Assembly: GCA_026705465.1 (NCBI GenBank)
Contig: JAPPAP010000033.1
Location: 62,001 to 126,000 of the forward strand
Length of the DNA: 64,000 bases
DNA from: a bacterium
GTDB lineage: Bacteria; Actinomycetota; Acidimicrobiia; Acidimicrobiales; Bin134
Reading direction: 5' to 3'
Shown: one piece after another, positions 224 to 24,841 of the stretch
Layout of the letters: each line of letters starts with the position of its first letter
Numbering within the stretch: position 1 is the first letter of the stretch
The notes under the pieces: generated by a model
The model's database searches: none
What the model was told of the DNA's origin: nothing
Seen by the model: the letters and a program-made list of their open reading frames with translations, nothing else
Position numbers and translations under genes: made by a program

Positions 224-1183
224 TCAGTAATCGAAGACTGAGGGCAGCGCGTCGACGGGCCGGGCCTCGGGGTAGTGCTCGGCGATCATGGCCGCGTGGT
301 CGGGATCGTCGTCGATGCGGTTGGGATCGAAGCGAGCGTCGATCCCCCGCTCAGCTAGATCGGCGTTGAACCGGGCGGCGATGTCGTCGCGGCTCAGAGG
401 ATTAGCGGCCAGCCGGGCCTTGTGGTCGGCGTCAATGTACACATCGGCCTTCCACAGCACGCTGATCCGGACATCGGCCAACGGCGTGCGGTACACCTCC
501 TCGCCGTGGTCGGTCACCACCCAGTCCCCATCGGGGCTGCCCGCCGGGGCGAATTGGGCCATGGGCGTGACCATCGGCGTGCCGATGTCGAATGGGCCGA
601 TGGAGTTGACCTGGTGGAACATGCCGTGGTTGTCGCCCATCAGCGCAGTGTTGGCCATGTTGCCGACGTGTTCTTCGGGCGGCTGGTCAGGCCCATAGGG
701 CCAGTAGCGAATCCCGCCGCCCTCCACGTCGTTGAGCCACCAGATGGCGGTGGCCTGGGGGAAAGACAGGTCGTCGAACAGGCCCGACCACAGCATGGCC
801 CGCAGCAGCCACATCGGGGTGTTGGTGCGGTCGCGGCCCGCAAACCGGGGGTTGTCGGTATGGGCCGGACCGGCTTGGGGAATGGCCATCATCTGGTTCA
901 CGTACACGCTGTGGGGCTCGACGATCTCGGCGCGGTAGTAGGCCTTGGCCGAGTCGATGTAGGCCTGATTGTCCAGAAACACCTCTGAACCGGGCACAGA
1001 GATGGTCTCGTTCACCCAGTCGTCCCGGAACCACAGCGGACGGGTGCGGGCATGGGGATCGGCGCCGGGGTTGTACCAACCCCCCAGCGGCGCGTACGGG
1101 GCCTCTTGAGCCAGCAGCTTGACCACAGCCCCAACATCGTCAATCACATCGGTAAGCAAGATGGGCGGATCGGACACATGCAT
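224..1183 (-). CDS. Putative 2OG-Fe(II) dioxygenase-like protein
   Basis: 319 residues. The order of motifs resembles the prolyl-4-hydroxylase-type double-stranded beta-helix: H108-T-D110 as the HxD iron motif, a GGGIRYWPYG strand around 156-165, H190 in FHQV as the distal iron ligand, and R239-I-S241 as the RxS motif that would bind the 2-oxoglutarate carboxylate. The 49-residue gap between H190 and R239 is longer than usual, so an insertion must be assumed. No signal peptide, hence cytosolic. Substrate unknown. It is followed at once by a close paralogue. Upstream, TACGGT sits 8 nt before the ATG and could be a -10 element. The oxygenase assignment is inference from motif pattern and could be wrong; the open frame itself is secure. 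Confidence 0.6.
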   Translation of the reverse strand: MHVSDPPILLTDVIDDVGAVVKLLAQEAPYAPLGGWYNPGADPHARTRPLWFRDDWVNETISVPGSEVFLDNQAYIDSAKAYYRAEIVEPHSVYVNQMMAIPQAGPAHTDNPRFAGRDRTNTPMWLLRAMLWSGLFDDLSFPQATAIWWLNDVEGGGIRYWPYGPDQPPEEHVGNMANTALMGDNHGMFHQVNSIGPFDIGTPMVTPMAQFAPAGSPDGDWVVTDHGEEVYRTPLADVRISVLWKADVYIDADHKARLAANPLSRDDIAARFNADLAERGIDARFDPNRIDDDPDHAAMIAEHYPEARPVDALPSVFDY

Positions 1184-2782: not shown

Positions 2783-4315
2783 ATGAAGAGGCGGCTCACT
2801 TTCTTCGCAGTTTTCGCACTACTCGTTGCCGCCTGCGGAGGCGGAGATTCCGGCAATGAAGATGGGGCCTCACCGGACACACCTCCGCCGACCCAAGCTT
2901 CCGGTGTCCCCGCGCCCGAAGACACCGGCGTGGCCCAAGACACAGCCGTCAGCGATAGCGAAGATGAACCGGAACCCACGGTGGACGGCGCAGAGGACGA
3001 AGCCCCTGAGGACAGTGCCAGCCCAGAGCCTTCGGACGACACGATGTCGGACGAGGAGGTGGCGGCCCTCTCCGACCCCATCTTCCAACCCACGTGCCGG
3101 GGAGAAGGCGAGCTCAGCGCCACCGCCACCGGAGTCACCGCGGACACAATCAAGGTCGGTGCCCCTCAGATCGATTATGCGGAACTGGGCAGTCTGGGCC
3201 TCGTTCAGGCCGACCGAGGCGACAATGCGGTCATTCTCCAGGCGCTGGCCCAGGAATTGAACGACAACGGAGGGATCTGCGGCCGCATGGTGGAGACCGT
3301 GACGTATAAGTTCCTTCCCTTCGGCACCGGTACCTCGCTAGCGGGCTGCGTCTACTTCACAGAAGACGAAAAGGTCTTCGCGGTCTTGGGCAGCTTCATC
3401 AGAGTGCCGGCCGGGAACATCTGCGTGACCGAGACCCACGCCACTGCGCTCATCGGCGCCCCGTTTACAGTCGAAGATCGGGCCCGGGCCAATGCTCCCT
3501 GGGTAAACCTGGAAATCGCCACCGACCGGGCTTTGGAGGTGTTTGTGACCGCATTAGACAAAGCTGGACTGCTCACCGATCTCGGTAACGTGGCCGTACA
3601 CTCCGGCGCCGGACGCGCCGAGTTGGTCGACAACGTGCTCGTCCCCACCCTTGAAGCGGCTGGGGTGGAAATCGCCGAGCGGACCGTGATCGATGTGCCA
3701 GCCGGCGACACCCAAGCCGGGGCGGCGGTGTGGAGAACGTTCGCGGAGATCTACCGGAACGCCGACATCAACACCGTTTTCATCGATGGCGACAACATCT
3801 TCGGAGTAGAGCAGCTCATCCAGAATGGCCTCGAGGTCAAGCTGTTCAACGCAGAACGGGCCACGTTCACCTTTGGGTTGCAAGACTCCAGCGACCCCAG
3901 CTATTTCGAGGCCTACACGCTCGGCTCGCCATACGCCGGCAATGACAACAACCAGCGGATGGAAGACTGCATTGACGCCTTCGAGCGCCAGTCGGGAATT
4001 GAGGTGATCCCCACCGAGCAGTTGCCGGAAGACGAGACCGACTGGTTTATCCCGGTACGCGGATTCTGCCGGGTATTCGACCTCTTCGTGCAGTTGGCGG
4101 CCGCGGCCGGCCCGAACCTCTCCAACGAGTCTCTTCAGGCGGCGATCGACAGCTTCGGACCTATCGAACTGCCCAACGAGGCGTTCGCCTCGCTTGGCGC
4201 CGGCAAGTACGACGCCCGCGATGGCGTTGTGCTCATGAAGTGGGATCCCGAAGCCGGCGATGACGACAGAGGCGACTTCGTCGTTATCTCCGATTTGATC
4301 GACACCGGGGGCTGA
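2783..4315 (+). CDS. Liv-type ABC transporter solute-binding lipoprotein (module A)
   Basis: 510 residues. A signal peptide ends in a lipobox (LVAAC, lipidated C18), so the protein is anchored outside the cytoplasmic membrane. Residues about 20-100 are an acidic, proline-rich tether; the rest is a periplasmic-binding fold of the branched-chain amino acid/amide type. A strong Shine-Dalgarno (GGGGGAGG) precedes the ATG. It heads the run of permease/ATPase fusions downstream, and its paralogue at 19435-20931 sits in the second module, so it is the capture component of a Liv-type importer. Family members bind amino acids, amides, aromatic acids and other small organic acids; the ligand here is unknown. 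It is longer than the usual ~380-400 residues because of the tether. Confidence 0.85.
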   Translation: MKRRLTFFAVFALLVAACGGGDSGNEDGASPDTPPPTQASGVPAPEDTGVAQDTAVSDSEDEPEPTVDGAEDEAPEDSASPEPSDDTMSDEEVAALSDPIFQPTCRGEGELSATATGVTADTIKVGAPQIDYAELGSLGLVQADRGDNAVILQALAQELNDNGGICGRMVETVTYKFLPFGTGTSLAGCVYFTEDEKVFAVLGSFIRVPAGNICVTETHATALIGAPFTVEDRARANAPWVNLEIATDRALEVFVTALDKAGLLTDLGNVAVHSGAGRAELVDNVLVPTLEAAGVEIAERTVIDVPAGDTQAGAAVWRTFAEIYRNADINTVFIDGDNIFGVEQLIQNGLEVKLFNAERATFTFGLQDSSDPSYFEAYTLGSPYAGNDNNQRMEDCIDAFERQSGIEVIPTEQLPEDETDWFIPVRGFCRVFDLFVQLAAAAGPNLSNESLQAAIDSFGPIELPNEAFASLGAGKYDARDGVVLMKWDPEAGDDDRGDFVVISDLIDTGG

Positions 4316-4359: not shown

Positions 4360-4393
4360 CATGCTTGACAGCGAGCATGAACAAGATCAAGTT
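4360..4393 (+). promoter_or_regulatory. Candidate internal promoter with overlapping inverted repeat
   Basis: The 86 bp between the binding-protein gene and the MFS-LivF fusion contain a perfect -35 hexamer TTGACA (4365-4370), a 17-bp spacer and a weak -10 CAAGTT (4388-4393), with the ATG at 4402 close to the expected start of transcription. The -35 is flanked by the inverted repeat CATGCT-N8-AGCATG (4360-4365, 4374-4379), which could be an operator. This would let the transporter genes be transcribed apart from the binding protein. Read from sequence only; the -10 match is poor. Confidence 0.35.
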
Positions 4394-4401
4394 TGATCAC
4401 G

Positions 4402-6645
4402 ATGAGCGACCCTTTCGGGGGGAGACCTTCTGACGCCGGCGCCCTCAGCGACCAGATCTTGGCCGCAGAATCCGAGCGCCAGGCTGTGCTGGCTGCGGAG
4501 CCGGTGATCCTCGACGACGACCAGCTTCCCGGCGTCGGCGCCAAAGAACTCTCGCTGCGAGAGGCCATCTCGATCGGGGGCGTGTCCACCATCGTCCTGC
4601 TGGGAGCCCTCGATGCCACCGACGCTCTGGGAATCGGCGCAATGGGGCTCCTCGGGCCCGACATCCAAGAGTCGCTGGGGGTCAGCGACGCCGTGCTGGG
4701 CACCATCACCGCCGGGGGCAATGTCTTCATCGTGGCCGGCGGCCTGCTGCTGTCCCGGATCGCCGACAACAGCAACCGGGCCAGGCTGGTGGCCCTGGCC
4801 ACCATCTTCTGGTCGGCCATGACCCTTTTACTCGGATTCGTGCAAACCGCGTTCTGGTTCTTCATCGTCAATTGCGCCATCGCGTTCGGCCGATCGCAGA
4901 CCCATCCGGTGCAGGGCGCCATCATGGCCGACAGCTATCCCATCGAGGCCCGAGCCCGGGTCTACGCCGCCAAAGACATGGCCGGGCGATCGGGTGCTTT
5001 CCTCGCGCCGCTGGCCGTGGGCGGGTTGGTCTCGCTGATCGGGGGGGACGACGCCTGGCGCTGGGGGTTCATCGCGGCGTCGATCCCCACGCTGATCGTC
5101 GGCGCAACCATCTTTTTCCTCACCGACCCGCCGCGGGGGCAGTTCGAGCAGCGTTCCACCATCGGCGAGGCGCTCACCGACATGAAGCCCGGCCCCATAT
5201 CGCTGGGCGCCGCCTTCCAGCGGCTGTTCAAGGTGCGGACGATGAAATGGGCGTTGATGGCCGCGGTGGCCCTCGGCTTCAGCCTGATATCCGACGGTCT
5301 CTTCCTCAATCTGTACCTCGACGAGCGCTTCGACCTCGGCCCGTTTGAGCGGGCCCTGGCCAACAGCACCCCCGGGGTGATTGCCCTGTTCACGATTCCG
5401 TTCGTGGCCAAGTGGTACGACGGCTTCTACCGCCGCACCCCGCCGCAGGCCATGGCCTTGCTGGGATCGCTTTTCTTCCCAATGGCGCTCTTCACCGTGC
5501 TTCAGCTGCTGATGCCATCACCGGCGACCTTCGCGGTGATGGCTGGGCTCAAGGCGCTGTTCGCCGCCCCGGCCCTCTCGCTGCTGGGGCCGACTCTGGC
5601 CAACATCAACCCCTACCGCATGCGGGCGCTGGGTTCGGCCATCGGGATGTCGCTGGTGTTCGGGGTTGGCGGTCTCGGCGGGGCCATCCTGATGGGCCTC
5701 ATCTCCGATGCCACTTCGCCTCGTACTGCTCTGTTGGCCGTAGTTCCCGGAGCCATGATCATCGGCGGCCTGTTGACCATCAACGGCTCCCGACACATCC
5801 GGGCCGATCTCACCCTGGTGGTCGAGGAGATTAGAGAGGAGAAGGCCGAGAGCGACCGGATGAGGGCTGATCCCAGCGATATCCCGGTGCTTCAGCTCCA
5901 CAACATCGACTTCTCCTACGGACCGGTGCAAGTCCTGTTCGATGTCGACCTCGAAGTGGCCCGGGGTGAGACTCTGGCCCTGCTGGGAACCAACGGAGCG
6001 GGCAAGTCCACGGCCCTGCGGGTTGCCGCTGGCCTGGGCATTCCCTCCCGGGGCGTGGTGCGCCTCAATGGCCGCAATATGACTTTGGCGTCGCCCGAGC
6101 AGCGAGTGAGAGAGGGCATCTTCTTGCTGCCGGGCGGCCAAGGGGTTTTTCCCCACTTGTCGGTGCGAGAGAATCTCGAAACGTCGGCGGCCATTGTCCG
6201 CAGCGGCGCCGGCACCAAGCCCGATATCGCCGGGCGACTTGATCGGGCCTTCGAGCTGTTCCCGGTTCTGAGCCAGCGGCCCAAGACGCTGGCCCACGAC
6301 CTCAGCGGCGGGCAGAAGCAGATGCTGGCGCTGGCCCGGGTGATCATGCACGACCCGGAAGTGCTCTTCATCGACGAGCTGTCCCTTGGCCTTGCCCCTG
6401 TCGTCGTCCAAGACCTGCTGGCCGTGGCCGGACGTCTCCGCGACGCCGGACAGACGATGATCATCGTGGAGCAGTCCCTCAATGTCGCCCTGACACTGGC
6501 TGACCGTGCGGTCTTCATGGAGAAGGGCCACGTGCGGTTCACCGGGTCAGCCCAAAGTCTGTTGGAGCGCGACGACTTGGCCCGCGCCGTGTTCTTGGGC
6601 CGTGACGCCACCGCCGACCCGCAGGTTGATCTGGACGAGAGCTGA
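4402..6645 (+). CDS. MFS-type permease fused to LivF-type ABC ATPase (module A)
   Basis: 747 residues. Residues about 45-470 form a 12-helix major-facilitator-like membrane domain; a charged linker (about 472-492) joins a LivF-type nucleotide-binding domain with Walker A GTNGAGKST (529-537), signature LSGGQ (634-638) and Walker B FIDEL (656-660). In ordinary Liv systems LivF is a free soluble ATPase paired with LivG; here it is tied to a permease of a different superfamily. The stop overlaps the next start by 1 nt (TGATG), implying translational coupling with the LivH-LivM-LivG fusion, which lacks only LivF. A TTG at 4393 is an alternative start. The paralogue at 22640-24841 has the same architecture, so the fusion is not an assembly artefact. 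Whether the MFS part transports anything is unknown. Confidence 0.88.
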   Translation: MSDPFGGRPSDAGALSDQILAAESERQAVLAAEPVILDDDQLPGVGAKELSLREAISIGGVSTIVLLGALDATDALGIGAMGLLGPDIQESLGVSDAVLGTITAGGNVFIVAGGLLLSRIADNSNRARLVALATIFWSAMTLLLGFVQTAFWFFIVNCAIAFGRSQTHPVQGAIMADSYPIEARARVYAAKDMAGRSGAFLAPLAVGGLVSLIGGDDAWRWGFIAASIPTLIVGATIFFLTDPPRGQFEQRSTIGEALTDMKPGPISLGAAFQRLFKVRTMKWALMAAVALGFSLISDGLFLNLYLDERFDLGPFERALANSTPGVIALFTIPFVAKWYDGFYRRTPPQAMALLGSLFFPMALFTVLQLLMPSPATFAVMAGLKALFAAPALSLLGPTLANINPYRMRALGSAIGMSLVFGVGGLGGAILMGLISDATSPRTALLAVVPGAMIIGGLLTINGSRHIRADLTLVVEEIREEKAESDRMRADPSDIPVLQLHNIDFSYGPVQVLFDVDLEVARGETLALLGTNGAGKSTALRVAAGLGIPSRGVVRLNGRNMTLASPEQRVREGIFLLPGGQGVFPHLSVRENLETSAAIVRSGAGTKPDIAGRLDRAFELFPVLSQRPKTLAHDLSGGQKQMLALARVIMHDPEVLFIDELSLGLAPVVVQDLLAVAGRLRDAGQTMIIVEQSLNVALTLADRAVFMEKGHVRFTGSAQSLLERDDLARAVFLGRDATADPQVDLDES

Positions 6646-9494
6646 TGCTGGCCTTCACCCTCACCAGCCAGATCGTGTACCTCGGGGTGATAGACGGCTT
6701 GCTGGTCGGCTTGCTGGCCTTGGGCATTGTGCTGATCTACCGGGCCAGCGGGGTCATCAACTTCGCGGTGGGATCGCTCGGCGTGCTGTCGGCCAGCCTT
6801 CTGGCCTTGCTGGTGCTCACCTACGACTGGCCCTTCTGGCCCGCCGCCATCGTTGCGGTGATAGCAGGCGGCCTCGTGGCCGCCGCCTCGGAACTCACCG
6901 TGATCACCCGGTTGTTCCGAGCCCCCAGGGTCATCTTGCTGGTGGCAACAATCGGCATCGCCCAGCTCTGCGAGCTGCTCCAAGTGGCCCTGCCCGACAT
7001 AGAGACGACCATGGCTGTGAGATACCCGGTGGCGTTCTCCGGCCAGTGGGAGATTCTCGGTCTCCGGGTACGGGGTCCCGAGCTGATCGTGATCATCGTC
7101 GTTCCCGTCCTCACCGTGGCCCTCACCTACTACCTCCAGCGCACAGCACAGGGACGGGCGATTCGGGCCGCGGCCTCCAATCCCGACCTGGCCCGGCTCA
7201 CCGCCATCAACCCCAAGATCATCTCGACCGTCACCTGGATCATCGCGGGCCTGCTGGCGGCGGTGGCTCTGATATTGGTGGCGGGAATCAATGGCCAGCC
7301 CAGCGGCTTCCGGTCGCTAGGACCGGCCACCCTTGTCCAGGTTCTGGCCGCGGCCCTGATCGGGCGACTTCGCAACTTCCCGATGGCGATGATTGCCGGA
7401 GCGGCCCTCGGATTGCTCCGATCGCTGCTGGTCTTCAACTGGCCGACCACCGCGGGGCTCTACGACGGCTCGCTATTTTTGATCGTCATCGCCACCACGC
7501 TGGTGGCCAGCCGGCGGCTCACCGGCAGCGACGAGTCGTTCTCGTTCGTGCCCACCACCCGCCCGCTTCCCCACGCGGTGGCCCGCCTCTGGTGGGTCCG
7601 CCACTCGTCTCGCATCGGCATGGGGCTGCTCCTCGCCGCTGCGGCGATCCTCCCCTTCCTGATCACCCTGGCCTCGCGCCAACTCCTGTTCAGCGAGGTG
7701 TTGCTCTTCGCCCTGATCGGGATCTCGTTGGTGGTGCTCTCTGGGTGGACCGGTCAGATCTCACTGGGACAGGCCGCGCTGGCCGGCATCGGGGGATTGA
7801 CCACCGCGGCCTTGGTCGCCGGACGCGACATCGGGATCGGCCTGGGCGGAGCGTGGTTCACCCTCCCCCTTCCCGACATTCACTTCTTGTTGGCCGTGCT
7901 GGTGGGCGCGGCAGCCACTGGTGCCATCGCAGCAGTCATCGGGGTGGGGGCATTGCGGATTCGGGGCTTTCACCTGGCCATCGCCACTTTGGCGTTGGCT
8001 CTGCTGGGGCAGCAGTTTCTCTGGCGGCGGCCGTTCCTGTCCGGGGGCACCAATATCATCTCTCTCCCCCGAGCCACAGGGCCTGTCGATCTGGCCGATC
8101 AGCGCACCTACTACTTCTTCTCGCTGATTGCCCTGGTGGCGGTGATCGTTCTGGTGGCCAGGATGCGAGCCACCGGGGTAGGGCGCCGATGGCTGGCGGT
8201 GCGAGACAACAGCGCGGCGGCCTCGGCATTCACAATCTCGCCCTCCCGGGCCGGAATCCAAGCGTTCGTGGTGTCCGGGGTGATCGCCGGGCTCGGCGGC
8301 GGTCTGTTGGCCGGGCTGTACGTCTCCTTCGGGCTGACCGAGGAGTTCCAGATCCAAGATTCCATCGTGGTTGTCGCCATCGCGGTGATCGGCGGCGCCG
8401 GCACCGTGGTCGGTCCGATTCTCGGCGCCCTGTGGATCGTGGGCCTCCCCGCGATCTGGCCGGCCAACAACTTGGTGCCGCTTCTGACTTCCTCGATCGG
8501 GCTGCTGGTTTTGTTGATGTACTTTCCCGGCGGATTCGCCCAAGTGGTGCTCACCGGCCGCGATCGCTTCCTGGCCTGGTATGCGGGCCGGCTTCCCCAA
8601 CCCGAACCGGCGCCGAGACGAGAAGTGGCCAGCGTGGTTTCCCGATCGGAGGCCGCTTCTTCCCCTACTGGGCCAGTGCTGGTTGCCGACGAGGTGACGG
8701 TGGTTTTCGGAGGCCTGACAGCAGTCGACAACGCCTCTATCCGAGTCCGCTCCGGAGAGGTGGTGGGCCTCATCGGTACCAACGGGGCGGGCAAGACCAC
8801 GCTGATGAATGCCATCAGTGGATTCGTCCCGTGCTCCGGTCGAATCGAGTTCGAAGGCCGTCCCATCCAGAAGATGGCCGCCGACCAGCGAGCGGCGCTC
8901 GGTTTGGGACGGTCGTTTCAGCAGTCGCGGCTGTTTCCCGACTTGACCGTGCTCGAGACCCTGGCGGTGGCGGCGGAATCTCGCCAGCGAACCTCGTTCA
9001 CCGCCGCGGTCGGCTTCTTACCCAACGGCTATCGCCGCGACCGGGCACAAAGGGCCCACGCCCAAGACATCGTCGACTTCCTCGGCCTCGGCCCCTACGC
9101 CGACAAGTTCAACTCCGAGCTCTCAACCGGCACCCGTCGCATTGTGGAGCTTGGCTGCCTCTTGGCATTGGAGGCCCGTGTGCTGTGCCTCGACGAGCCC
9201 ACTGGAGGGGTCGCCCAGCGCGAGGTTGAGGCGTTTGCCCCCTTGCTGTTGTCGATCAAAGACGAACTCGGGGCCGCCATGTTGGTGATCGAACACGACA
9301 TGCCCATGATCATGCAGATCAGCGACCGGATCTGCTGTCTGGAAGCAGGCCGGGTGATCGCTGCGGGCTCGCCCGCCGAAATTCGCACCGATCCCGCCGT
9401 CATCGCCTCCTACCTCGGTACCGACGAACGGGCCATCCGCCGGTCGGGGACAATTGATCCAGGCGAGGAAGCCCATTTCCCAACGCCGACCTAG
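6645..9494 (+). CDS. LivH-LivM-LivG fusion: two permease domains and an ATPase (module A)
   Basis: 949 residues combine three subunits of a branched-chain amino acid-type ABC importer. LivH-like permease occupies about 1-290, LivM-like permease about 330-645, and a LivG-like ATPase about 688-930 with Walker A GTNGAGKTT (711-719), an LSTG signature variant (826-829) and Walker B ending DEP (850-852). With the LivF domain supplied by the preceding gene, the two polypeptides contain every Liv membrane and ATPase part. The start ATG overlaps the preceding stop by one base. Expected in the cytoplasmic membrane, driving uptake of the ligand of the 2783-4315 binding protein. The substrate class cannot be inferred. 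Confidence 0.9.
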   Translation: MLAFTLTSQIVYLGVIDGLLVGLLALGIVLIYRASGVINFAVGSLGVLSASLLALLVLTYDWPFWPAAIVAVIAGGLVAAASELTVITRLFRAPRVILLVATIGIAQLCELLQVALPDIETTMAVRYPVAFSGQWEILGLRVRGPELIVIIVVPVLTVALTYYLQRTAQGRAIRAAASNPDLARLTAINPKIISTVTWIIAGLLAAVALILVAGINGQPSGFRSLGPATLVQVLAAALIGRLRNFPMAMIAGAALGLLRSLLVFNWPTTAGLYDGSLFLIVIATTLVASRRLTGSDESFSFVPTTRPLPHAVARLWWVRHSSRIGMGLLLAAAAILPFLITLASRQLLFSEVLLFALIGISLVVLSGWTGQISLGQAALAGIGGLTTAALVAGRDIGIGLGGAWFTLPLPDIHFLLAVLVGAAATGAIAAVIGVGALRIRGFHLAIATLALALLGQQFLWRRPFLSGGTNIISLPRATGPVDLADQRTYYFFSLIALVAVIVLVARMRATGVGRRWLAVRDNSAAASAFTISPSRAGIQAFVVSGVIAGLGGGLLAGLYVSFGLTEEFQIQDSIVVVAIAVIGGAGTVVGPILGALWIVGLPAIWPANNLVPLLTSSIGLLVLLMYFPGGFAQVVLTGRDRFLAWYAGRLPQPEPAPRREVASVVSRSEAASSPTGPVLVADEVTVVFGGLTAVDNASIRVRSGEVVGLIGTNGAGKTTLMNAISGFVPCSGRIEFEGRPIQKMAADQRAALGLGRSFQQSRLFPDLTVLETLAVAAESRQRTSFTAAVGFLPNGYRRDRAQRAHAQDIVDFLGLGPYADKFNSELSTGTRRIVELGCLLALEARVLCLDEPTGGVAQREVEAFAPLLLSIKDELGAAMLVIEHDMPMIMQISDRICCLEAGRVIAAGSPAEIRTDPAVIASYLGTDERAIRRSGTIDPGEEAHFPTPT

Positions 9495-9523
9495 TCGAAT
9501 AGTTGACCCATACTGGAGAGGCC

Positions 9524-11047
9524 ATGCGGATCCTGTACATCGACATCGACACCCTTCGGGCCGATCACTTGGGGTGCGCGGGATACCACCGCAACACCAC
9601 GCCGAACATCGACGCGCTAGCCGCTGAGGGGGTGCGGTTTTCCAACGTCTATGCGTCCGACGTGCCCTGCCTGCCCAGCCGTACCGCGCTGATCACCGGG
9701 ATGTTCGGGATTCGCAACGGGGTGGCCAACCACGGGGGCATGGCGGCCGACCTGCGGCCCCAAGGGCCAGATCGCAGCTTCTTCTCCACCATCGCGGCCA
9801 GCTCTTGGGCGTCGCGCTTCTACTGGTCGGGCTACCACACCGCCTCGATTTCCAGCTTTCCATTCCGCCACTCGGCCACGTGGTGGAACAGCGGTTTCAT
9901 GGAGTCGATGAACCTGATGCGCGGCTTTGGCGGCGAGCGGGCCGACCAGGTGCTGCCCGGCGCTTTGCGCTGGCTCAGCGACAACGCCGAGGCCGAAGAC
10001 TGGTTCCTCCACGTCCACTTATGGGATCCCCACACCCCCTATAACGCCCCGGCCGACTACGGAAACCCGTTCGAAAGCGATCCCCCGCCGGCCTGGCACA
10101 CCGAGGAAGTGCGGGCCCGCAACTGGCCGTTGGCCGGACCGCATTCGGCCCAAGAGCCCTGGGGGTTCAAACCCGACGAGTGGGGCCCTCCTCCGCCTCG
10201 CCATCCGTGGAACCTGTCGAACATGGACGAGGTCAAGCAGACCTTTGACGGCTACGACACCGGCATCCGCTACGCCGACGACGCGGTGGGGACGCTGGCC
10301 GACAAACTGGCCGGTCACGGCGTGCTGGACGAGACCGCCATCCTGGTCTCCTCCGACCACGGCGAGGCGTTCGGCGAACTGGGGGTGTACGCCGACCACC
10401 AGGCCGCCGACGAGGCCACCTGCCATATCCCCTCGGTGCTGCGCTGGCCGGGGATCGAACCCCAGGTCCACGAGGGGCTGCTCTATCACCTGGACGTGGG
10501 CGCCACCATCGTCGATCTGGCCGACATCGACATCCCCTTCCACTGGGACGGCATGTCGGTGGCCGACGACATTCGCACCGGCGACCACCGAGGGCGGGAG
10601 TCCTTGGTGCTGTCTCAGGGGGCGTGGTCAGTACAGCGGGGCGTGCGCTGGGGAGACCACCTCTACCTGCGGACCTGGCATGACGGCTATCACGCGGCCT
10701 GGAACGAGGAGATGCTGTTCGACATCGCCTCCGACCCCCACGAAACCACCGACCTGGCCGATCAAGCCCCATCGGGGCTGGCCGAAGGCCGGGACATGCT
10801 CCAGTCTTGGACCGACGAACAGATGACCCGCAGCTACTCCCCCGTCGACCCTCTCAAGATCGTGCTAGCCGAGGGCGGCCCCTTCCATTGCAAGGGGCAC
10901 CTGCCCGAGTACCTGGAGCGCCTCGAAGCGACCGGCCGAACCGAAGCCGCGGCGGTTCTTCGCCAACGCCATCCCATCGACGACGCATCCACCGGCTTGT
11001 CGGGGATCCCCAAAGACGTGCTCGAGAGCCTCGGAATCGACGTTTGA
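9524..11047 (+). CDS. Type I sulfatase, cytosolic (module A)
   Basis: 507 residues from an ATG preceded by GGAGAG; a TTG at 9503 would add seven residues. The alkaline-phosphatase-fold sulfatase signature is clear: metal ligands in the first strand (D7, D9) and C49-L-P-S-R53 followed by T-A-L-I-T-G, the site where Cys is converted to formylglycine. Late in the protein SSDHG supplies further metal ligands. No signal peptide, so hydrolysis of sulfate esters (or phosphonate/phosphate esters in some relatives) occurs inside the cell. It follows the importer genes after 29 nt and overlaps the next gene by 1 nt, consistent with desulfation of an imported sulfated compound (inference). A second sulfatase sits in module B. 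Confidence 0.88.
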   Translation: MRILYIDIDTLRADHLGCAGYHRNTTPNIDALAAEGVRFSNVYASDVPCLPSRTALITGMFGIRNGVANHGGMAADLRPQGPDRSFFSTIAASSWASRFYWSGYHTASISSFPFRHSATWWNSGFMESMNLMRGFGGERADQVLPGALRWLSDNAEAEDWFLHVHLWDPHTPYNAPADYGNPFESDPPPAWHTEEVRARNWPLAGPHSAQEPWGFKPDEWGPPPPRHPWNLSNMDEVKQTFDGYDTGIRYADDAVGTLADKLAGHGVLDETAILVSSDHGEAFGELGVYADHQAADEATCHIPSVLRWPGIEPQVHEGLLYHLDVGATIVDLADIDIPFHWDGMSVADDIRTGDHRGRESLVLSQGAWSVQRGVRWGDHLYLRTWHDGYHAAWNEEMLFDIASDPHETTDLADQAPSGLAEGRDMLQSWTDEQMTRSYSPVDPLKIVLAEGGPFHCKGHLPEYLERLEATGRTEAAAVLRQRHPIDDASTGLSGIPKDVLESLGIDV

Positions 11048-11970
11048 TGCAGGTTCTGCCCGGTCGGATCATCACCGGGATGTCGGCGATCCTGTTGCCC
11101 CATCTCGATTCGACCACGGTGGACTGGGCTTCGCTGGACGCTCACATCGCCCGCACCCACGAGGCCGGACTCACCCCGGCGGTGAACATGGACACTGGCT
11201 TTGTCCAGCTGCTCGATGCCGACACTCGCACGCAGGTACTCGACCGGGCCAAGGCCATCACCGGCGGCGACTTCGCAGCCGGAGCGTTCGTGGCCGACGA
11301 CCTGGGGGCGGAATTCGACCTCGACGCCTACCTGCGGGCAGCAGAAGAGATCATCGCCAGAGGTGGCCTGCCCGTGATCTTCCCGTCGCACGGGCTGAAC
11401 GACCACGGCGATGCCGCCTGGCTTGACGCCCATGGCCAGCTAGCTGGCCACATCGAACGATTCATCGGGTTCGAACTGGGCCCTATGTTCGTGCCCTACG
11501 GCCGAATTGTGTCGCTGGACACCTACCGGGGCCTGCTGGAAATTCCCCAGTGCATCGGGGCCAAGCACTCGTCGCTGAATCGGCAACTGGAGTGGGATCG
11601 GCTGGCGCTGCGCAACGAGGTCCGCCCGGACTTCATGGTGCTGACTGGCAACGACCTGGCCATCGACATGGTGATGTACGGCTCCGACTACCTGCTGGGA
11701 CTCTCCACGTTCGCGCCCGACAAATTCGCCGAGCGCGATCGCCTATGGGCTAGAGATGACCCCGGCTTCTACCAACTCAACGACGTTCTCCAGTACCTAG
11801 GGCACTTCACGTTCCGCCCGCCGGTACCGGCCTATCGCCACAGCGCGGCCATGTTCTTGCAGATGCGGGGCTGGGCCGAAAGCGACGCCACCCCCGTTGG
11901 GGCACCAACTCGCCCCGACAGCGACCGGGAGATACTGCGCGACATCGGCGAGCAGCTGGAAGTGCTCTAG
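11047..11970 (+). CDS. Dihydrodipicolinate synthase/N-acetylneuraminate lyase-family protein
   Basis: 307 residues from the ATG that overlaps the sulfatase stop by one base. It reads as a class I aldolase-type TIM barrel of the DapA/NanA superfamily, with the Schiff-base lysine K173 in IGAKHSS. Members condense or cleave pyruvate-type adducts of aldehydes and keto-acids. The C-terminal third is atypical, so it is unlikely to be the lysine-pathway DapA. Coupling to the sulfatase and the Old Yellow Enzyme suggests a role in breaking down the imported substrate (inference). Upstream in-frame codons exist but overlap the sulfatase and show no family-like sequence. Confidence 0.72.
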   Translation: MQVLPGRIITGMSAILLPHLDSTTVDWASLDAHIARTHEAGLTPAVNMDTGFVQLLDADTRTQVLDRAKAITGGDFAAGAFVADDLGAEFDLDAYLRAAEEIIARGGLPVIFPSHGLNDHGDAAWLDAHGQLAGHIERFIGFELGPMFVPYGRIVSLDTYRGLLEIPQCIGAKHSSLNRQLEWDRLALRNEVRPDFMVLTGNDLAIDMVMYGSDYLLGLSTFAPDKFAERDRLWARDDPGFYQLNDVLQYLGHFTFRPPVPAYRHSAAMFLQMRGWAESDATPVGAPTRPDSDREILRDIGEQLEVL

Positions 11971-18393: not shown

Positions 18394-19421
18394 TGGGCGC
18401 TTGGGACCGGCGTGATTCCGTGGAACGGACTGCCGGCTTCCTGATACTCCTCGAGCAACTTGAAGAACTCCTCGCCAAACGGGCTTTCGCCCCGAAGGGG
18501 CATTGCCGCCCGGACAACGGTGAAGTCCAACGGCGCCAACCGCGCGGCGGCGTCGAAGTGGTGAGCCGCCCCTGCCTCGTCACCAGCGCGCCGCAGATGG
18601 GCGGCGAGGCGGAAGTGCAATCGGGCAGCCAACTCGTCTTCGTCCAGGTCGGCGATCTCGCTGCTGGCGTCATCGGGAACAACACCCTGGTGAACCCAGG
18701 CGCGGATCTGGTCGAAGTGCCCCTCGCGAGTGCGGCCGGTGAATTCGCTGAACATGTCGGTCCCGAACTCATTGGCGTTGGGACGGGCGATGCGACCGTT
18801 TTCGTCGATCCACACCACCGCAGGCACATTGCTGATGGCGTACAACTCGGTGAGAAGGTGGTCGGGATCCATGAGCACCGGATAAGTGATGCCATCAGCC
18901 AGCACCCGCACCTCATCAGTGGCTTCGTCAATGGCCACCGCAATCACCTGGAAGTCGTCATCGGCCAGCTCATCTTGCAATTCCTGCCACCCGGGCAGGT
19001 CGAAGGCGCATCCTCACCAACTAGAAAAGGCAACCAAGAGCCGCCTTTTGCCGGCATAGTCGGACAGGCTCCGGTCCACGCCATCGAGATCGGCAAGTGT
19101 GAAGTCCGGCGCTTGGCGGTCGAGCAGGGCGGCCCGGCGAGTGGCGTTGGGCTGGCCCACCACAACAGTGTTCGTGTCGGGATCCACCAGGGTGGGTCGG
19201 TCCAAGCCACTGGCGGCAGCCGCTACATCGACCTTGTCGCCCACCTCGATGACCGAGCGGTCTCTCACCGGGACACACTGATCATCGCGGCAAAGGCCCT
19301 CAGGCTTGAGCGTCCACCCGATCGCGGCTGGTAGTCCCTCCGGCTCGATCAGCGGGCGCCCATCGACCCATTCTCCTGAAGCAGTGGCTACCTCGTCGCC
19401 GAGGACGGTGATGCTCGTCAT
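18390..19421 (-). CDS. Candidate selenoprotein: thioredoxin-fold (redoxin/ResA-like) protein with TGA at the active site
   Basis: 343 residues if the TGA at 19014-19016 is read as selenocysteine (residue 136). The frame is otherwise uninterrupted from the ATG at 19421 (ribosome-binding site AAAGGAG) to 18390. Residues about 85-230 form a redoxin domain, with the start of the fold (APDFTLADLDG) before the TGA and the rest (FDLPGWQELQDEL, then the VPAVVWID cis-proline loop) after it. The TGA falls where the first active-site Cys belongs, giving FSSW-Sec-G-Cys138. A C-terminal helical tail of about 100 residues looks TPR-like. No signal peptide. It follows the binding-protein gene by 13 nt and its stop overlaps the ligase start. 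If TGA is a true stop the gene is split, but loss at exactly this codon would be a coincidence. Confidence 0.8.
18983..19013 (-). other. SECIS-like hairpin just downstream of the in-frame TGA
   Basis: On the coding strand, 14 nt after the TGA, CCTGCC (18999-18994) and GGCAGG (18988-18983) form a perfect 6-bp stem around the 5-nt loop CGGGT. A TT/AA pair can extend the stem across a small bulge. Bacterial SECIS elements lie directly 3' of the UGA, with an apical loop roughly 16-37 nt away that has a G in its first two positions; here the loop begins 20 nt after the TGA and has G second. The hairpin sits in coding sequence, so its persistence would be constrained by both roles. Confidence 0.6.
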
Positions 19422-19434
19422 GTTGGATACTCCT

Positions 19435-20931
19435 TTACTCGACGGGTTCGAATGGAATTGAATCGCCGACCGGCAGCCAAGTCCTCTCTTCGGAGTCGAA
19501 CTCGTAACGCTGCACATGTGAGCCAGCTGAGTGCTTGTCGGGCGACAGGCTGGCGCCGGCCATGGCGGGAAGGTCAAACGTTCCCATGCGCTCGCCCGCC
19601 GCTATGAAAGTCTCCGGGGTGATGTTGCCTCCGGCCTCCTCCAGAATCCTGACGGTCAGCACAAAAGCCCGACAATGGGTGGTTATGCCGAGGACCACCT
19701 CGCTGTCGTCCAAATCCAGCGGCTCATCGCCGAACCGCTCCTCATAGGCGCCAATGCACTGCTGCACGCCGGGATCGGCGATGGCCTGCTCAGGTGAGGG
19801 TTTGTGGGTGGTCACCGCGAAAGTCCGAGCCAGCGACTCGTTGGTGAGCGACAAGTCATCGCTGATCGTTGTGCGGTCGGCGGCCTGCCCGTTGGTCAGG
19901 GCGATGGGGACATCCCAGCCGAGCCGTTGCGTCGACTGGATGATGCCGTGCACATTGGACAGGTTGAGGATCAGATCAACCCCGTCGGCTTCCATTCGAT
20001 AGGAAATATTGTCGGTCGTCGGTTGGTCGGCCACCGCGTCTCCGGTAGGAGCGCCCCTCGGGTAGACCCCGACGACATTTATGCCTGCGTCCTCCAGTAA
20101 CGGCCGTATCGCATCGGCGTACTCTTTGTCAGGAGGAGCCTCGTAGTAGATGCCCACGTTGTGGCCGTCGAGGTCGCCGGCCCGGATCATCTCGATGACC
20201 CCTCCCACCCGCATGTGGGTCTGGTTCATCTCGGCGGCGAAGAACAGGCCGTTGGAACGGGCCTGGCGCTCAGTGTTCTCGCCAAAGTGACCGACATAGG
20301 GATGTCCGTGAGTCTCGGTAATGCACAAGGCATAGTCCTCAAGGAACTGGCCGATGACCACAAACACTTTCCTGTCCTCCATCAACTCGACACAAACCGC
20401 CTCGTTGGCGGCGGCACCGAGAGGGAAGAACAAGCTGACGTGGACCACCACATCTCTACCATTGATCCCGCCCCGCTGGTTCAGGTCATCAACCAGCGCT
20501 GCGTAGAAGTTCTCCACCGGGAAGGGGCTGAGGTCGACGCCAATCGACGCCAGCATTTCGATGTCGATGGCAGCAATACCGATAGCGATCTCCGTTTCGG
20601 TTACACCCTGGTAGCTGGCGGTGAGCACAATCGGGGTTGGCTCCGGCGTTGGCTCATCGGGGGTCTTGGCCGGCTCGTCGGCAGGAGTTTCCGCGGACTC
20701 TTCGGGAGCTGTCTCGGCCGGCTCGTCGGCCGGTTCCTCAACTGGCTGATCGGATGGCTCATCGGATGGTTCATCAGCCGGAGCAGAGGTTTGCTCTTGG
20801 GCTGCGGATGGCTCCGAGGTGTCAGCACTGCCGTCATCGTCATTGCCGCCGCACGCTGCGGCCACGAGCGCCACGGCGATGAGCAACCACCACCATCTCC
20901 GTATGCCTCTTGAACCTCTGATTTCGGTCAC
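19435..20931 (-). CDS. Liv-type ABC transporter solute-binding lipoprotein (module B)
   Basis: 498 residues from a GTG with a strong Shine-Dalgarno (AGGGGAGGGA). The signal peptide ends in VAAAC (lipidated C27). Residues about 30-105 are a Pro/Glu/Asp-rich tether with DEP-type repeats, then the periplasmic-binding fold of the Liv/amide family. It is the counterpart of the protein at 2783-4315. It lies downstream of the module B sulfatase and upstream of the Sec protein, acyl-CoA ligase and PPOX genes on the minus strand, while its membrane partners (MFS-LivF and LivHMG fusions) are on the plus strand beginning at 22640. Ligand unknown. Confidence 0.85.
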   Translation of the reverse strand: MTEIRGSRGIRRWWWLLIAVALVAAACGGNDDDGSADTSEPSAAQEQTSAPADEPSDEPSDQPVEEPADEPAETAPEESAETPADEPAKTPDEPTPEPTPIVLTASYQGVTETEIAIGIAAIDIEMLASIGVDLSPFPVENFYAALVDDLNQRGGINGRDVVVHVSLFFPLGAAANEAVCVELMEDRKVFVVIGQFLEDYALCITETHGHPYVGHFGENTERQARSNGLFFAAEMNQTHMRVGGVIEMIRAGDLDGHNVGIYYEAPPDKEYADAIRPLLEDAGINVVGVYPRGAPTGDAVADQPTTDNISYRMEADGVDLILNLSNVHGIIQSTQRLGWDVPIALTNGQAADRTTISDDLSLTNESLARTFAVTTHKPSPEQAIADPGVQQCIGAYEERFGDEPLDLDDSEVVLGITTHCRAFVLTVRILEEAGGNITPETFIAAGERMGTFDLPAMAGASLSPDKHSAGSHVQRYEFDSEERTWLPVGDSIPFEPVE

Positions 20932-20965: not shown

Positions 20966-22540
20966 TCATTTCAGGCCTAGCCGAGCGTATTGGTCGTCGG
21001 GCGCTTGTACTTCGTTGAGCGCGGTGTGGAGCAGGTCGAGCATCTCATCGGCCAACGACTCACTGCTGCGGTTCTCCTGCTCGTTCGGGTCGACGTCGAG
21101 GTCGAACAGGAAGTGGCGGTCGTTGCAGGCGTTCACCGCCACCCACAGCGGGAGCGTGTCGCCCTGCTGGTAGGGCTGGCGGATCACCGGCACCTCCGAC
21201 CCTGGCATGTTGTCCAGCCAGGCTCGGTGGTCGGGCGGGGGCAATCCGGGCATACCGATATCGCCGAACGGCATGGTGGACCACCGGTTGGACCACATCG
21301 ACAGCGGGAAGTTGTCCCCGGTCGCGCCTCGGGCGTACTTGTGCTGGCCGTCGGTGACTTGTACCCAGCCCCCGAACACTCCGCCCAGCGCCCAGTCCCG
21401 GATGACGTCGACTTCGCCAGTTAGCAGCGGAGCCATGGAGCGGCCATGGGTGGTCTGCACCACCTCGGCATCGAAGACGTCGGCCACGGTGGCGAAGATG
21501 TCCACATTGGTGGTCAGCGCATCGCACTCTCCCCCACCGGGCTTCCCCGGCCAGGACACCAAAAGCGGCGTGTGGCCCAGAGGCTCGTACTGGGGCACTC
21601 CGGGCTTACCCCAGATATCACGCCCCTCCCGCTCGTCCCCCAGATAATGGCCGTGGTCGGTACACACGATCAGCGCGGTGTCGTCCCACAGGTTCTGCTC
21701 GTCGAATCGATCCAGAATCTTCCCAAACCAGTGGTCGATCATCGACAGCTTGGCCCCGTAGTTGGCCCGCACGTGGCGGCCTTCTTTCTCCGAGAGGTTG
21801 CCGGAGGCGATACCCCCGTCGACATAGGGCGGCCAGATGATCCACTCCTCATCCCACGCCTCGTCGAAATATCGGCCTGCCCACGGTGCCGGCGTGTCGA
21901 ACGGCTCGTGAGGATCGAACTCATCCACGAACATGAACCACCGGTCGTGGTGAGGCGTGGCCTCGGCCAAGAATTGCGCCGCCGCGCTCATCGTCTTCGG
22001 CCCGGGGTAATCCTCTTCCGAGCGGAAGAACGTCCGAGACCGGTCATAGCCCCGGTCCATTTCCTCAAGCCCCCACATCTTCGACCACCACCAGCCGCCC
22101 TTTCGGGCCGGCATTGTCGGAGTCCCGGCCCAGCTGGGGTCGTAGAAGGTGCGCCACGGATCGCCCTCGTGGCCCCGCAAATAGTCCCAGCAGTGGAAAT
22201 CGGTGTGGTAGTTCTCGCCGCCGGTCTCAAATAGATGGGGATGGTCGGTAAACAGTGCGGTGGTCACCCCGCTGCGGCGCAGTACTCGGGTAATGGTTTC
22301 CTCCCACAGCTCCACCGACCCCCACGGCTTCCACAGAAAATCCAGCGCCCCGCACAGGATGTCGTGGCGGGCCGGCATGCACGGCAGCGACCCCGTCACA
22401 TGGCGGGTGAACCGAGTGGCTCGCTCAGCGGCGAACCGGTCCAAGTTCGGCGTCTCGAACTCGGTGCCGCCGTAGCTCCCCAGCATGTGCCGATTCAGCG
22501 AATCCAACAAGATGACCGCAACATTCGACGGTGCGCTCAT
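20966..22540 (-). CDS. Type I sulfatase, cytosolic (module B)
   Basis: 524 residues from the ATG at 22540, which has a purine-rich ribosome-binding site; codons upstream of it are not sulfatase-like. The formylglycine motif is C54-M-P-A-R58 with the following D-I-L-C-G, metal ligands lie in the first strand (LLDSLN) and in CTDHGHYLGD. No signal peptide, so intracellular. It is the first gene of a five-gene minus-strand operon (sulfatase, binding protein, Sec protein, ligase, PPOX) and diverges over 99 bp from the MFS-LivF fusion. Sulfatase plus Liv-type importer is thus found in both modules. Distinguishing sulfate from phosphate ester substrates by sequence alone is not possible. Confidence 0.87.
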   Translation of the reverse strand: MSAPSNVAVILLDSLNRHMLGSYGGTEFETPNLDRFAAERATRFTRHVTGSLPCMPARHDILCGALDFLWKPWGSVELWEETITRVLRRSGVTTALFTDHPHLFETGGENYHTDFHCWDYLRGHEGDPWRTFYDPSWAGTPTMPARKGGWWWSKMWGLEEMDRGYDRSRTFFRSEEDYPGPKTMSAAAQFLAEATPHHDRWFMFVDEFDPHEPFDTPAPWAGRYFDEAWDEEWIIWPPYVDGGIASGNLSEKEGRHVRANYGAKLSMIDHWFGKILDRFDEQNLWDDTALIVCTDHGHYLGDEREGRDIWGKPGVPQYEPLGHTPLLVSWPGKPGGGECDALTTNVDIFATVADVFDAEVVQTTHGRSMAPLLTGEVDVIRDWALGGVFGGWVQVTDGQHKYARGATGDNFPLSMWSNRWSTMPFGDIGMPGLPPPDHRAWLDNMPGSEVPVIRQPYQQGDTLPLWVAVNACNDRHFLFDLDVDPNEQENRSSESLADEMLDLLHTALNEVQAPDDQYARLGLK

Positions 22541-22639
22541 GAACCCCCCTGCCCTGTCTTTGGCATCTCCTTGATCTTCTGACGCTACTCTCATGGGCCA
22601 GCACAGGCCGAATATGGCCGCCCGAGCTTGGGGGAGACG

Positions 22640-24841
22640 TTGGACAACGAGCAGACCCAAAGCGAGTCCATCGACGCGCTGGCCACCACGGTGTTGGAGG
22701 GGGAGGCGGCTCGGCGCGACGCCCAAAAGGCCGAGGTGTTGTTTCCCGACGACCTGCTGCCCGGTGTGGGCGGCGAGGAAACAACCCTCAAGGAGGGCTT
22801 ACTCAAGGGGGGTTACCGGACCTTTTTCATCCTGCTCGCGCTGAACAGCCTCGACGAACTGGAGAACAGCGCGGTGGCCATCTTGGGCCCCGACATCGGC
22901 GAGAGCTTCGGGGTGAGCGATGGGGCCATAACCGCCATCAGCACGGCATCGCTCATGTTCTTCGTGCTCGGGGCCGGGCCCATGGGGTGGCTGGCCGACC
23001 GTTTCCGGCGCGGCCCCATCGTCGGCGTTGCCAGTGGGGCCTTCGCCGCCTTCAGCGCTCTTTCCGGAGCGGCAGTGAACGCCTTGATGTTCTTCTTCAT
23101 GCGGTTCTTCGCCGGCATGTCCAAGGCCAACACCATCACTGTGCATCCCAGCATGCTGGCCGACACCTATCCGCTTCAGACCCGAGGCCGCATGTTTGCC
23201 ACCAACGCCGGGGTAGGGCGCATCTTCTCTGCTGTCAGCCCGATTCTGGCTGGGGGCATCGCAGTGTGGATCGGAGGCGACGACGGCTGGCGCTGGGCGT
23301 TCTACCTTCTGGGACTACCCACCGCCGCCTTGGCATTCTTGGCCTTCTTCTTGCGGGAGCCACCCCGGGGCCAATGGGAGCAGGAGCATGTGCTGGGCTC
23401 CGGCCTCAAACAGGACAACAAGATGCCGATTTCGGTGGAGGCTGCCTTCACCCGCATCTGGAACATCGACACCATCCGCAACATGACCATCGCGTTCGCG
23501 GCCATGGGTTTCGCCCTCTTCCCGGCCAGCTCGATCCAGTCGTTCTTCTTGAAGGAAGAGTTCGGCCTCGACGCCTTGGAGCGCGGGTTGGCGGTGGCCC
23601 CCGCGGGGGTCGGCCTGCTGGTGTTCCTTCCTTTTGTTGGGCGCCGGTTCGATGCCACCTTCCGAAGGGACCCCGATCGGGCGATGCGGCTCATCGGCAT
23701 CCTCCTGCTGCCGATCGGCGTGCTGGTACCGATCCAGTACGCCATGCCCAATCTCGGCTTATTCATGACTCTCTCCGCCATCAACTCCACCTTCCTGGGC
23801 GGGGCATTTGCCATGGTGCAGCCCGCCATTCAAGCGGTGTTCCCCTATCGACTGCGGGGCATGGGGACTGCATTCTTGACCTTCTTCATGGTCATGGTGG
23901 GCGGTGTGGGGGGCAGCATCATCGCCGGCTTCCTCCAAAACGAGCTCGGCGAACAGACCGCCATCACCGTCATCACCGCGGTCGCCATGCCCATCGGCGC
24001 CTACTTCGTGCTCCGAGGGGCCAGCCGGCTGCGTCGCGACCTCTCGCTGGTCGTCGGCGAGCTTCAAGAAGAACAAGAGGAAGAACGCCGTCAGGCCGAG
24101 ACCGATCCCGACAACATGCCCGCCATCCAGGTAGCCCATGTCGATTTCAGCTACGGGCAGGTGCAGGTGCTTTTCGATCTCGGCTTCGAAGTGCGCAAGC
24201 ACGAGACACTGGCCCTGCTGGGCACCAACGGTGCGGGCAAGTCCACCGCGCTCAAGGTGATCACCGGCCTGGCCATCCCCGAGCGGGGGGTGGTGCGCCT
24301 GCACGGCCAAACCATCACCTACGCCACGCCTGAGCAGCGGGCGGCTATGGGTCTGCACATGCTGCCGGGTGGGGCCGGGGTGTGGAGCGACCTGTCGATA
24401 CGCGACAACCTGCTCATGGGGGCCTACGCCTACCGGAGAGATCCCAGTGACCGGGACCGGCGCATCGAACAAGTGCTCGACATGTTTCCCGACCTCGGCA
24501 GACGACCCAGTGAGCGGGCCGGAAACCTTTCAGGCGGCCAGCAGCAGATGCTGGCTTTGGCCCGGGTGATGCTGCACGAGCCCGAGGTGCTGATGATCGA
24601 CGAGCTGTCGCTGGGACTGGCCCCGGTGGTGGTGCAATCGCTTTTGGAAACGATTGAGGAACTCAAGGAACAGGGCCAGACCATGATCATCGTGGAGCAG
24701 TCTCTGAACGTGGCGCTGGCCATCGCTGACCGGGCTGTTTTCTTGGAGAAGGGGCAAGTGCGCTTCGAAGGACCGGCCCAAGAGCTTGCTGAACGCGACG
24801 ACTTGGCCCGGGCGGTGTTCCTGGGCACCGAGGGCGGCTGA
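22640..24841 (+). CDS. MFS-type permease fused to LivF-type ABC ATPase (module B)
   Basis: 733 residues from a TTG preceded by GGGGGAG; another TTG lies at 22628. Architecture matches the 4402-6645 gene: N-terminal cytosolic segment, an MFS-like domain (about 40-465), a glutamate-rich linker (QEEQEEERRQ) and a LivF-type ATPase with Walker A GTNGAGKST (528-536), signature LSGGQ (630-634) and Walker B MIDEL. The stop and the next ATG share one base (TGATG), as in module A. The membrane part contains acidic and basic residues in the loop after helix 2 like true MFS proteins. Together with LivHMG it would complete a Liv importer; the purpose of the MFS part is unknown. Confidence 0.88.
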   Translation: MDNEQTQSESIDALATTVLEGEAARRDAQKAEVLFPDDLLPGVGGEETTLKEGLLKGGYRTFFILLALNSLDELENSAVAILGPDIGESFGVSDGAITAISTASLMFFVLGAGPMGWLADRFRRGPIVGVASGAFAAFSALSGAAVNALMFFFMRFFAGMSKANTITVHPSMLADTYPLQTRGRMFATNAGVGRIFSAVSPILAGGIAVWIGGDDGWRWAFYLLGLPTAALAFLAFFLREPPRGQWEQEHVLGSGLKQDNKMPISVEAAFTRIWNIDTIRNMTIAFAAMGFALFPASSIQSFFLKEEFGLDALERGLAVAPAGVGLLVFLPFVGRRFDATFRRDPDRAMRLIGILLLPIGVLVPIQYAMPNLGLFMTLSAINSTFLGGAFAMVQPAIQAVFPYRLRGMGTAFLTFFMVMVGGVGGSIIAGFLQNELGEQTAITVITAVAMPIGAYFVLRGASRLRRDLSLVVGELQEEQEEERRQAETDPDNMPAIQVAHVDFSYGQVQVLFDLGFEVRKHETLALLGTNGAGKSTALKVITGLAIPERGVVRLHGQTITYATPEQRAAMGLHMLPGGAGVWSDLSIRDNLLMGAYAYRRDPSDRDRRIEQVLDMFPDLGRRPSERAGNLSGGQQQMLALARVMLHEPEVLMIDELSLGLAPVVVQSLLETIEELKEQGQTMIIVEQSLNVALAIADRAVFLEKGQVRFEGPAQELAERDDLARAVFLGTEGG

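Follow-up and report, generated by a model that had tools for sequence, protein, structure and literature searches.

Two transport machines that are normally apart seem to be built as one in many actinobacteria: a LivF-type ABC ATPase that carries a Spinster-like MFS carrier at its N terminus. Textbooks keep primary transporters, driven by ATP, apart from secondary ones, driven by gradients. In the window (the whole stretch of 64,000 nucleotides that was analysed), the fusion gene lies at 4393-6645 on the forward strand, in a single open frame that starts at TTG 4393 (750 aa) or ATG 4402 (747 aa) and stops at 6643-6645. Residues are numbered here from TTG 4393, residue n beginning at 4393+3(n-1); numbering from ATG 4402 is lower by 3. 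The initial annotation had described a 12-helix MFS region and a complete LivF-type ATPase with Walker A, LSGGQ and Walker B in one frame, and this was confirmed by Pfam, NCBIfam and motifs: MFS_1 matched residues 80-417 (E 3e-27), ABC_tran matched residues 516-662 (E 1.5e-25), and the top NCBIfam matches of the ATPase, over residues 499-736, were UrtE/LivF. The Spinster-like MFS domain spans 4570-5808 (+; residues 60-472) and the LivF-type nucleotide-binding domain 5887-6606 (+; residues 499-738), the latter with Walker A (GTNGAGKST) at 5986-6012, the LSGGQ signature at 6301-6315, Walker B and its Glu (IDE) at 6370-6378, a Q-loop in which PGG replaces P[EQ]G, and an H-loop EQ of the LivF type. 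Upstream of the carrier, the AlphaFold model and conservation point to an N-terminal cytoplasmic helix (4435-4494, +) that is kept in most A-type fusions; an LPGVG motif lies between it and TM1.

The fusion gene is accompanied by the remaining parts of an importer. Its stop codon overlaps by one base (TGATG) the start of a partner gene at 6645-9494 (+), a LivH-LivM-LivG fusion of 949 aa in which two BPD_transp_2 (PF02653) stretches correspond to the LivH and LivM permease domains. Walker A, signature and Walker B are present in both the LivG- and the LivF-type ATPase of this first system, and both score below the NCBIfam equivalog cut-offs, which marks a divergent subfamily. A substrate-binding protein gene precedes the fusion at 2783-4315 (+; Peripla_BP_6, E 1e-4, under the curated cut-off). 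The window holds a second system, at 22628-27729, which comprises another MFS-LivF fusion (22628-24841, +), placed on a separate branch of the family and sharing 35% identity with the first in the MFS and 62% in the ATPase, and its own LivH-LivM-LivG fusion (24841-27729, +), with a substrate-binding protein gene nearby at 19435-20931 (-). The partner gene, the second system and the Spinster likeness of the MFS half all go beyond the initial annotation. One sulfatase gene (9503-11047) lies 8 bases downstream of LivHMG of the first system, and another (20966-22726) is divergent from the second system; sulfatases adjoining both systems hint at sulfated substrates. In the other contexts searched, however, few sulfatases were matched, most of them next to fusions closely related to the first system, and the neighbours did not yield a substrate assignment. 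The intact frames 227-1183 (-), 10981-11967 (+) and 18420-19331 (+) had no Pfam match at E 1e-5. In its domain content, the system is a HAAT importer to which a Spns-like module has been added. Our preferred reading, tentative and a little short of an even chance, is that the gene is the LivF of a HAAT-type importer (substrate-binding protein, LivH-LivM-LivG and LivF) with a Spns-type carrier at its N terminus, and that the MFS is mechanically linked to the ATP cycle.

That an assembly or annotation artefact (a frameshift or a chimeric contig) lies behind the fusion has a negligible probability. The source genome is fragmented, in 40 contigs, which would favour an artefact, but 85 distinct MFS-LivF fusions were collected from many assemblies, including single-contig genomes and a complete plasmid sequence. 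A frameshift or joining error, raised in the initial annotation, was rejected, because the same genome holds three more full-length copies (four in all, two of them within the 64-kb window) and fusion copies 90-96% identical occur in 8 other MAG assemblies. A check of domain architecture in Actinobacteria agreed, MFS_1 and ABC_tran being matched together in 64/64 family members scanned. At class level, an MFS match at E <= 1e-20 was obtained in 57/247 genomes, with most frames of about 730-860 or 1000-1970 codons; a phylum-level profile search of 396 genomes gave 38 matches at E <= 1e-40, and some of the phylum matches, chiefly the weaker ones, are in frames of ~470-550 codons and represent unfused carriers. 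Beyond Actinobacteria, the search covered plasmids and one close-relative scan of genome contigs. The plasmid search returned one full-length fusion match, from Embleya sp. NBC_00888 (Streptomycetaceae), where a complete operon of MFS-LivF, LivHMG and substrate-binding protein (L117:8914-15384) is located on the 5.7 Mb linear plasmid NZ_CP108785.1, a complete plasmid sequence in whose record the operon carries no annotation; one alignment left out a row taken from a plasmid record. This copy provides a named genus for work on the fusion. No split operon, with an MFS gene adjoining a livF gene of its own, was seen, and the unfused MFS relatives that were checked lie away from Liv genes. Three candidates for unfused genes were rejected: the 504-aa MFS frame of L090 is shortened by masked bases (X in the translation) and is not a split gene, and in L108 and L109 the contigs end where an MFS-only gene had seemed to be.

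Both its sequence and its predicted fold liken the MFS half to the Spinster (Spns) carriers. The only PDB sequences that it matched were HnSpns (E 2e-10) and SPNS2 (E 4e-5). Since a fold search with the full-length protein was dominated by ATPase matches, the MFS half was modelled and searched separately (pLDDT 91.7), and Foldseek ranks 1-12 were then all Spns, followed by a D-galactonate:proton symporter. Residue roles are described for HnSpns, in which Asp41, the substrate residue Arg42, the charge relay Asp87-Arg91-Asp142 and the proton switch Glu129 stand out (PMC9440201, PMC13192786), and we compared these places across the family, all percentages referring to weighted sequences. The initial annotation had proposed to look at the motif A residues and at lost proton or substrate residues. 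The charge relay is kept: Asp125 and Arg129 of motif A (DNSNR, 4765-4779, +), which correspond to HnSpns Asp87 and Arg91, are conserved in 90% and 100% of the family, and Asp180, at the place of Asp142, in 100%; Arg187 is present in 97%. In TM1, Asp77-Ala78 (4621-4626, +) take the places of Asp41 and Arg42, a correspondence inferred from aligned motifs outside the phmmer-aligned stretch. The first of these places is D in 81% and E in 8% of the family (D/E 89%; D77 in the window copy); the second, the substrate Arg, is E in 65%, the window copy having A78 and thus no E78. In TM4 (Asn160, Arg167 and Asp180; 4870-4932, +), the place of the proton switch Glu129 is K in 41%, R in 19% and Q in 18% (K/R 60%; R167 in the window copy), and the place of HnSpns Arg122, in the RxxxG motif, is R in 65% (N160 in the window copy). 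As judged from these alignments, the Spns proton switch is lost and the cytoplasmic gating charges are kept in the MFS of the fusions.

The altered charges appear to be balanced. An acid at 78 is combined with a base at 167 in 15/31 representatives, which looks like a salt bridge reversed with respect to Spns, and the four-site cavity cluster is net neutral in 68% of the 31 representatives versus 41% in column shuffles, a shuffle that ignores kinship. Arg320 (5350-5352, +), where TM8 is predicted to begin on the periplasmic side, is invariant in the fusions and is A, T or G in most unfused relatives; a docking or latch site is a possible role. Among the unfused relatives that were checked, several have no Arg320 and retain E, D or Q at the switch place; L106, L137 and L096 have the same pattern as the fusions.

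The joint between the two halves is the next line of evidence. TM12 and the linker are predicted to form a single continuous helix (5719-5868, +; residues 443-492) that contains the invariant Asp472; in the full-length AlphaFold monomer model (pLDDT 92.3, pTM 0.89) it is helix 440-489 in ATG numbering. The spacing from Asp472 to the Walker A Lys, counted in the raw sequences with only Asp472 located by alignment, is 64-67 residues in 85/85 fusions, and the first 18 residues of this stretch show no indel in the alignment. Recent ancestry does not account for this constancy, because the median MFS identity among fusions is only 28%. The constant spacing argues for a rigid joint, whose geometry is a prediction from the monomer modelled without LivHMG. 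It bears on an alternative in which the MFS would simply be a secondary carrier of the usual kind, moving a related compound or one transported in exchange, the ATPase would serve LivHM alone, and the fusion would set only stoichiometry and proximity. Such independent carriers on a tether are consistent with the retained TM1 Asp (D77) and motif A network, but the length of a tether need not be constant, yet the spacing varies by 3 residues over 85 sequences, and Glu129, the Spns proton switch, is not retained. We regard this alternative as doubtful, although it stays a serious one for reasons of gene content given below.

The operons are arranged in several ways around the same joint. In layout A, [MFS-LivF][LivH-LivM-LivG], the reverse gene order occurs too; layout B is [LivH-LivM][MFS-LivF-LivG] and layout C [MFS-LivF][LivHM][LivG], the MFS-LivF joint being the constant element across all three. 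The triple fusion of B type, MFS-LivF-LivG beside a LivH-LivM fusion, was seen in L070, L071, L097, L099, L101-L105, L107, L110 and L114. Where 2.5 kb or more of sequence was available on both sides of a fusion, LivH/LivM adjoin on the same strand in 50/50, and the gap to the neighbour is -1 or -4 bases (overlaps) in 26 of the 50; several other gaps are strongly negative only through the use of longest-ORF starts. None of these 50 operons has a second LivF, the two genes flagged as 'other LivF' being on the opposite strand, and a substrate-binding-protein-like gene lies no more than 7 kb away in 22 of the 50 loci. Of the two options offered in the initial annotation, two transport paths that the ATPase would power or gate agree better with these data than a membrane anchor, through the near-fixed helical joint, the always adjoining LivHM and the lack of another LivF in the operon.

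By sequence comparison, the MFS-LivF fusion is an old one that arose once and was then kept. In a tree of the ATPases, those of the fusions group in a single clade (100/98), from which the conventional LivFs of the same genome are excluded. The main groups recur in the MFS tree, and MFS and ATPase distances are correlated (r = 0.85, the maximum in 999 label permutations being 0.21). The Q-loop has GG (mostly PGG) in the fused ATPases and P[EQ]x in the conventional LivFs of this genome. The same genome also has a LivH-LivM-LivF fusion of conventional type (L119:774, +; 1003 aa), which lies outside the MFS clade. Within the fused clade are two rows that had been labelled unfused. One is L090, a fusion broken by masked bases; the other, L005/L054, is probably a secondary loss of the MFS, because there is no room for an MFS and it is nested in layout B, where L054:7896-11750 (-) encodes a 1284-aa LivH-LivM-LivF-LivG protein. 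L054 thus probably lost its MFS module, and since it nests inside the fusion clade the importer can lose it. Conversely, MFS-only genes of B-type-like sequence, with no ATPase and away from Liv genes (L106:1958-3403, -, and L137:5644-8559, -), suggest that the MFS module is able to act alone. Because of these unfused genes and of the MFS-less relative, which retains LivHMFG, the tethered, independently working carrier has to be taken seriously.

The same data weigh against the other option of the initial annotation, the membrane anchor, taken here more widely as an MFS that would only hold LivF passively at the membrane or serve as a scaffold for its assembly. LivF is otherwise soluble and the fusion would bring it to the membrane, but one helix would do for this and a 12-helix carrier has been kept across the phylum, with invariant charges inside it. 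In comparisons with seven close relatives (NG86), dN/dS is 0.07-0.11 for the MFS and 0.07-0.21 for LivH/LivM, with 0.05-0.08 for LivF and 0.15-0.23 for the binding protein; since purifying selection on the MFS is as strong as on the true permeases, a passive anchor is unlikely. Together with the gating charges, the charge-balanced cavity and the free type-B-like MFS genes, this leaves the anchor poorly supported and, in our estimate, highly improbable.

ABC importer ATPases with regulatory domains exist. Such precedents, and the MFS sensors Snf3/Rgt2 (PMC10876965), would suit an MFS that works like a transceptor, binding a ligand and gating the LivF ATPase without transport. The retained polar cavity and gates, the helical link of fixed length and the altered proton switch are all compatible with a sensor; however, the gate networks on the cytoplasmic side are still those of a functioning carrier, and the free MFS copies have nothing to gate. 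We consider a sensor improbable, if less so than an anchor.

In our preferred reading of an importer with a mechanically linked carrier, MFS-LivF and LivHMG would form one membrane complex, in which LivG and LivF would dimerise beneath LivHM, next to the MFS. As ATP closes the ATPases, the TM12-linker helix would shift, and this shift would bias the MFS, or drive it, between inward- and outward-facing states. The MFS would then offer a further transport path, tied to the cycle of the importer, and we would guess that its cargo is an amphipathic compound, either the imported substrate or its product. In its strongest form, an MFS carrier without a proton switch would be driven directly by an ABC ATPase shared with a second permease, one ATP cycle serving two unrelated pathways; we hold this to be rather unlikely, scarcely ahead of the tethered secondary carrier. 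A conserved and rigidly spaced fusion across many actinobacterial families makes the powering or gating of an MFS carrier by an ABC ATPase directly testable.

An earlier account of the architecture, which the initial annotation had named as a possible objection, did not turn up: no description of an MFS-ABC fusion was found in open-access PMC text, a scope outside which subscription papers and TCDB lie, and MFS-LivF may be listed in automatic domain databases. In the ArsA-ArsB arsenite pump, ArsA is not an ABC ATPase and ArsB is not an MFS protein; the two are separate chains, and their complex is not known to include a second permease. Its working principle is nevertheless a precedent by analogy, in that a gradient-capable carrier can be coupled to an ATPase and become a primary pump (PMC4435449). 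The known HAAT importers (LivFGHM-J, UrtABCDE) share with our systems the LivH, LivM, LivG and LivF domains, a nearby substrate-binding protein and complete ATPase motifs; they differ in that their LivF is a free soluble subunit, whereas here it carries a 12-helix carrier (85/85), LivH-LivM-LivG are joined in one chain and the Q-loop has PGG and not P[EQ]G. With the Spns carriers (HnSpns, MsSpns, SPNS2), the MFS half has in common the sequence and fold matches, the Asp in TM1 and the charge relay of motif A, but the fusions differ in having mostly Lys/Arg at the place of Glu129, mostly Glu at that of Arg42, an invariant Arg320 and an ABC ATPase joined to the C terminus.
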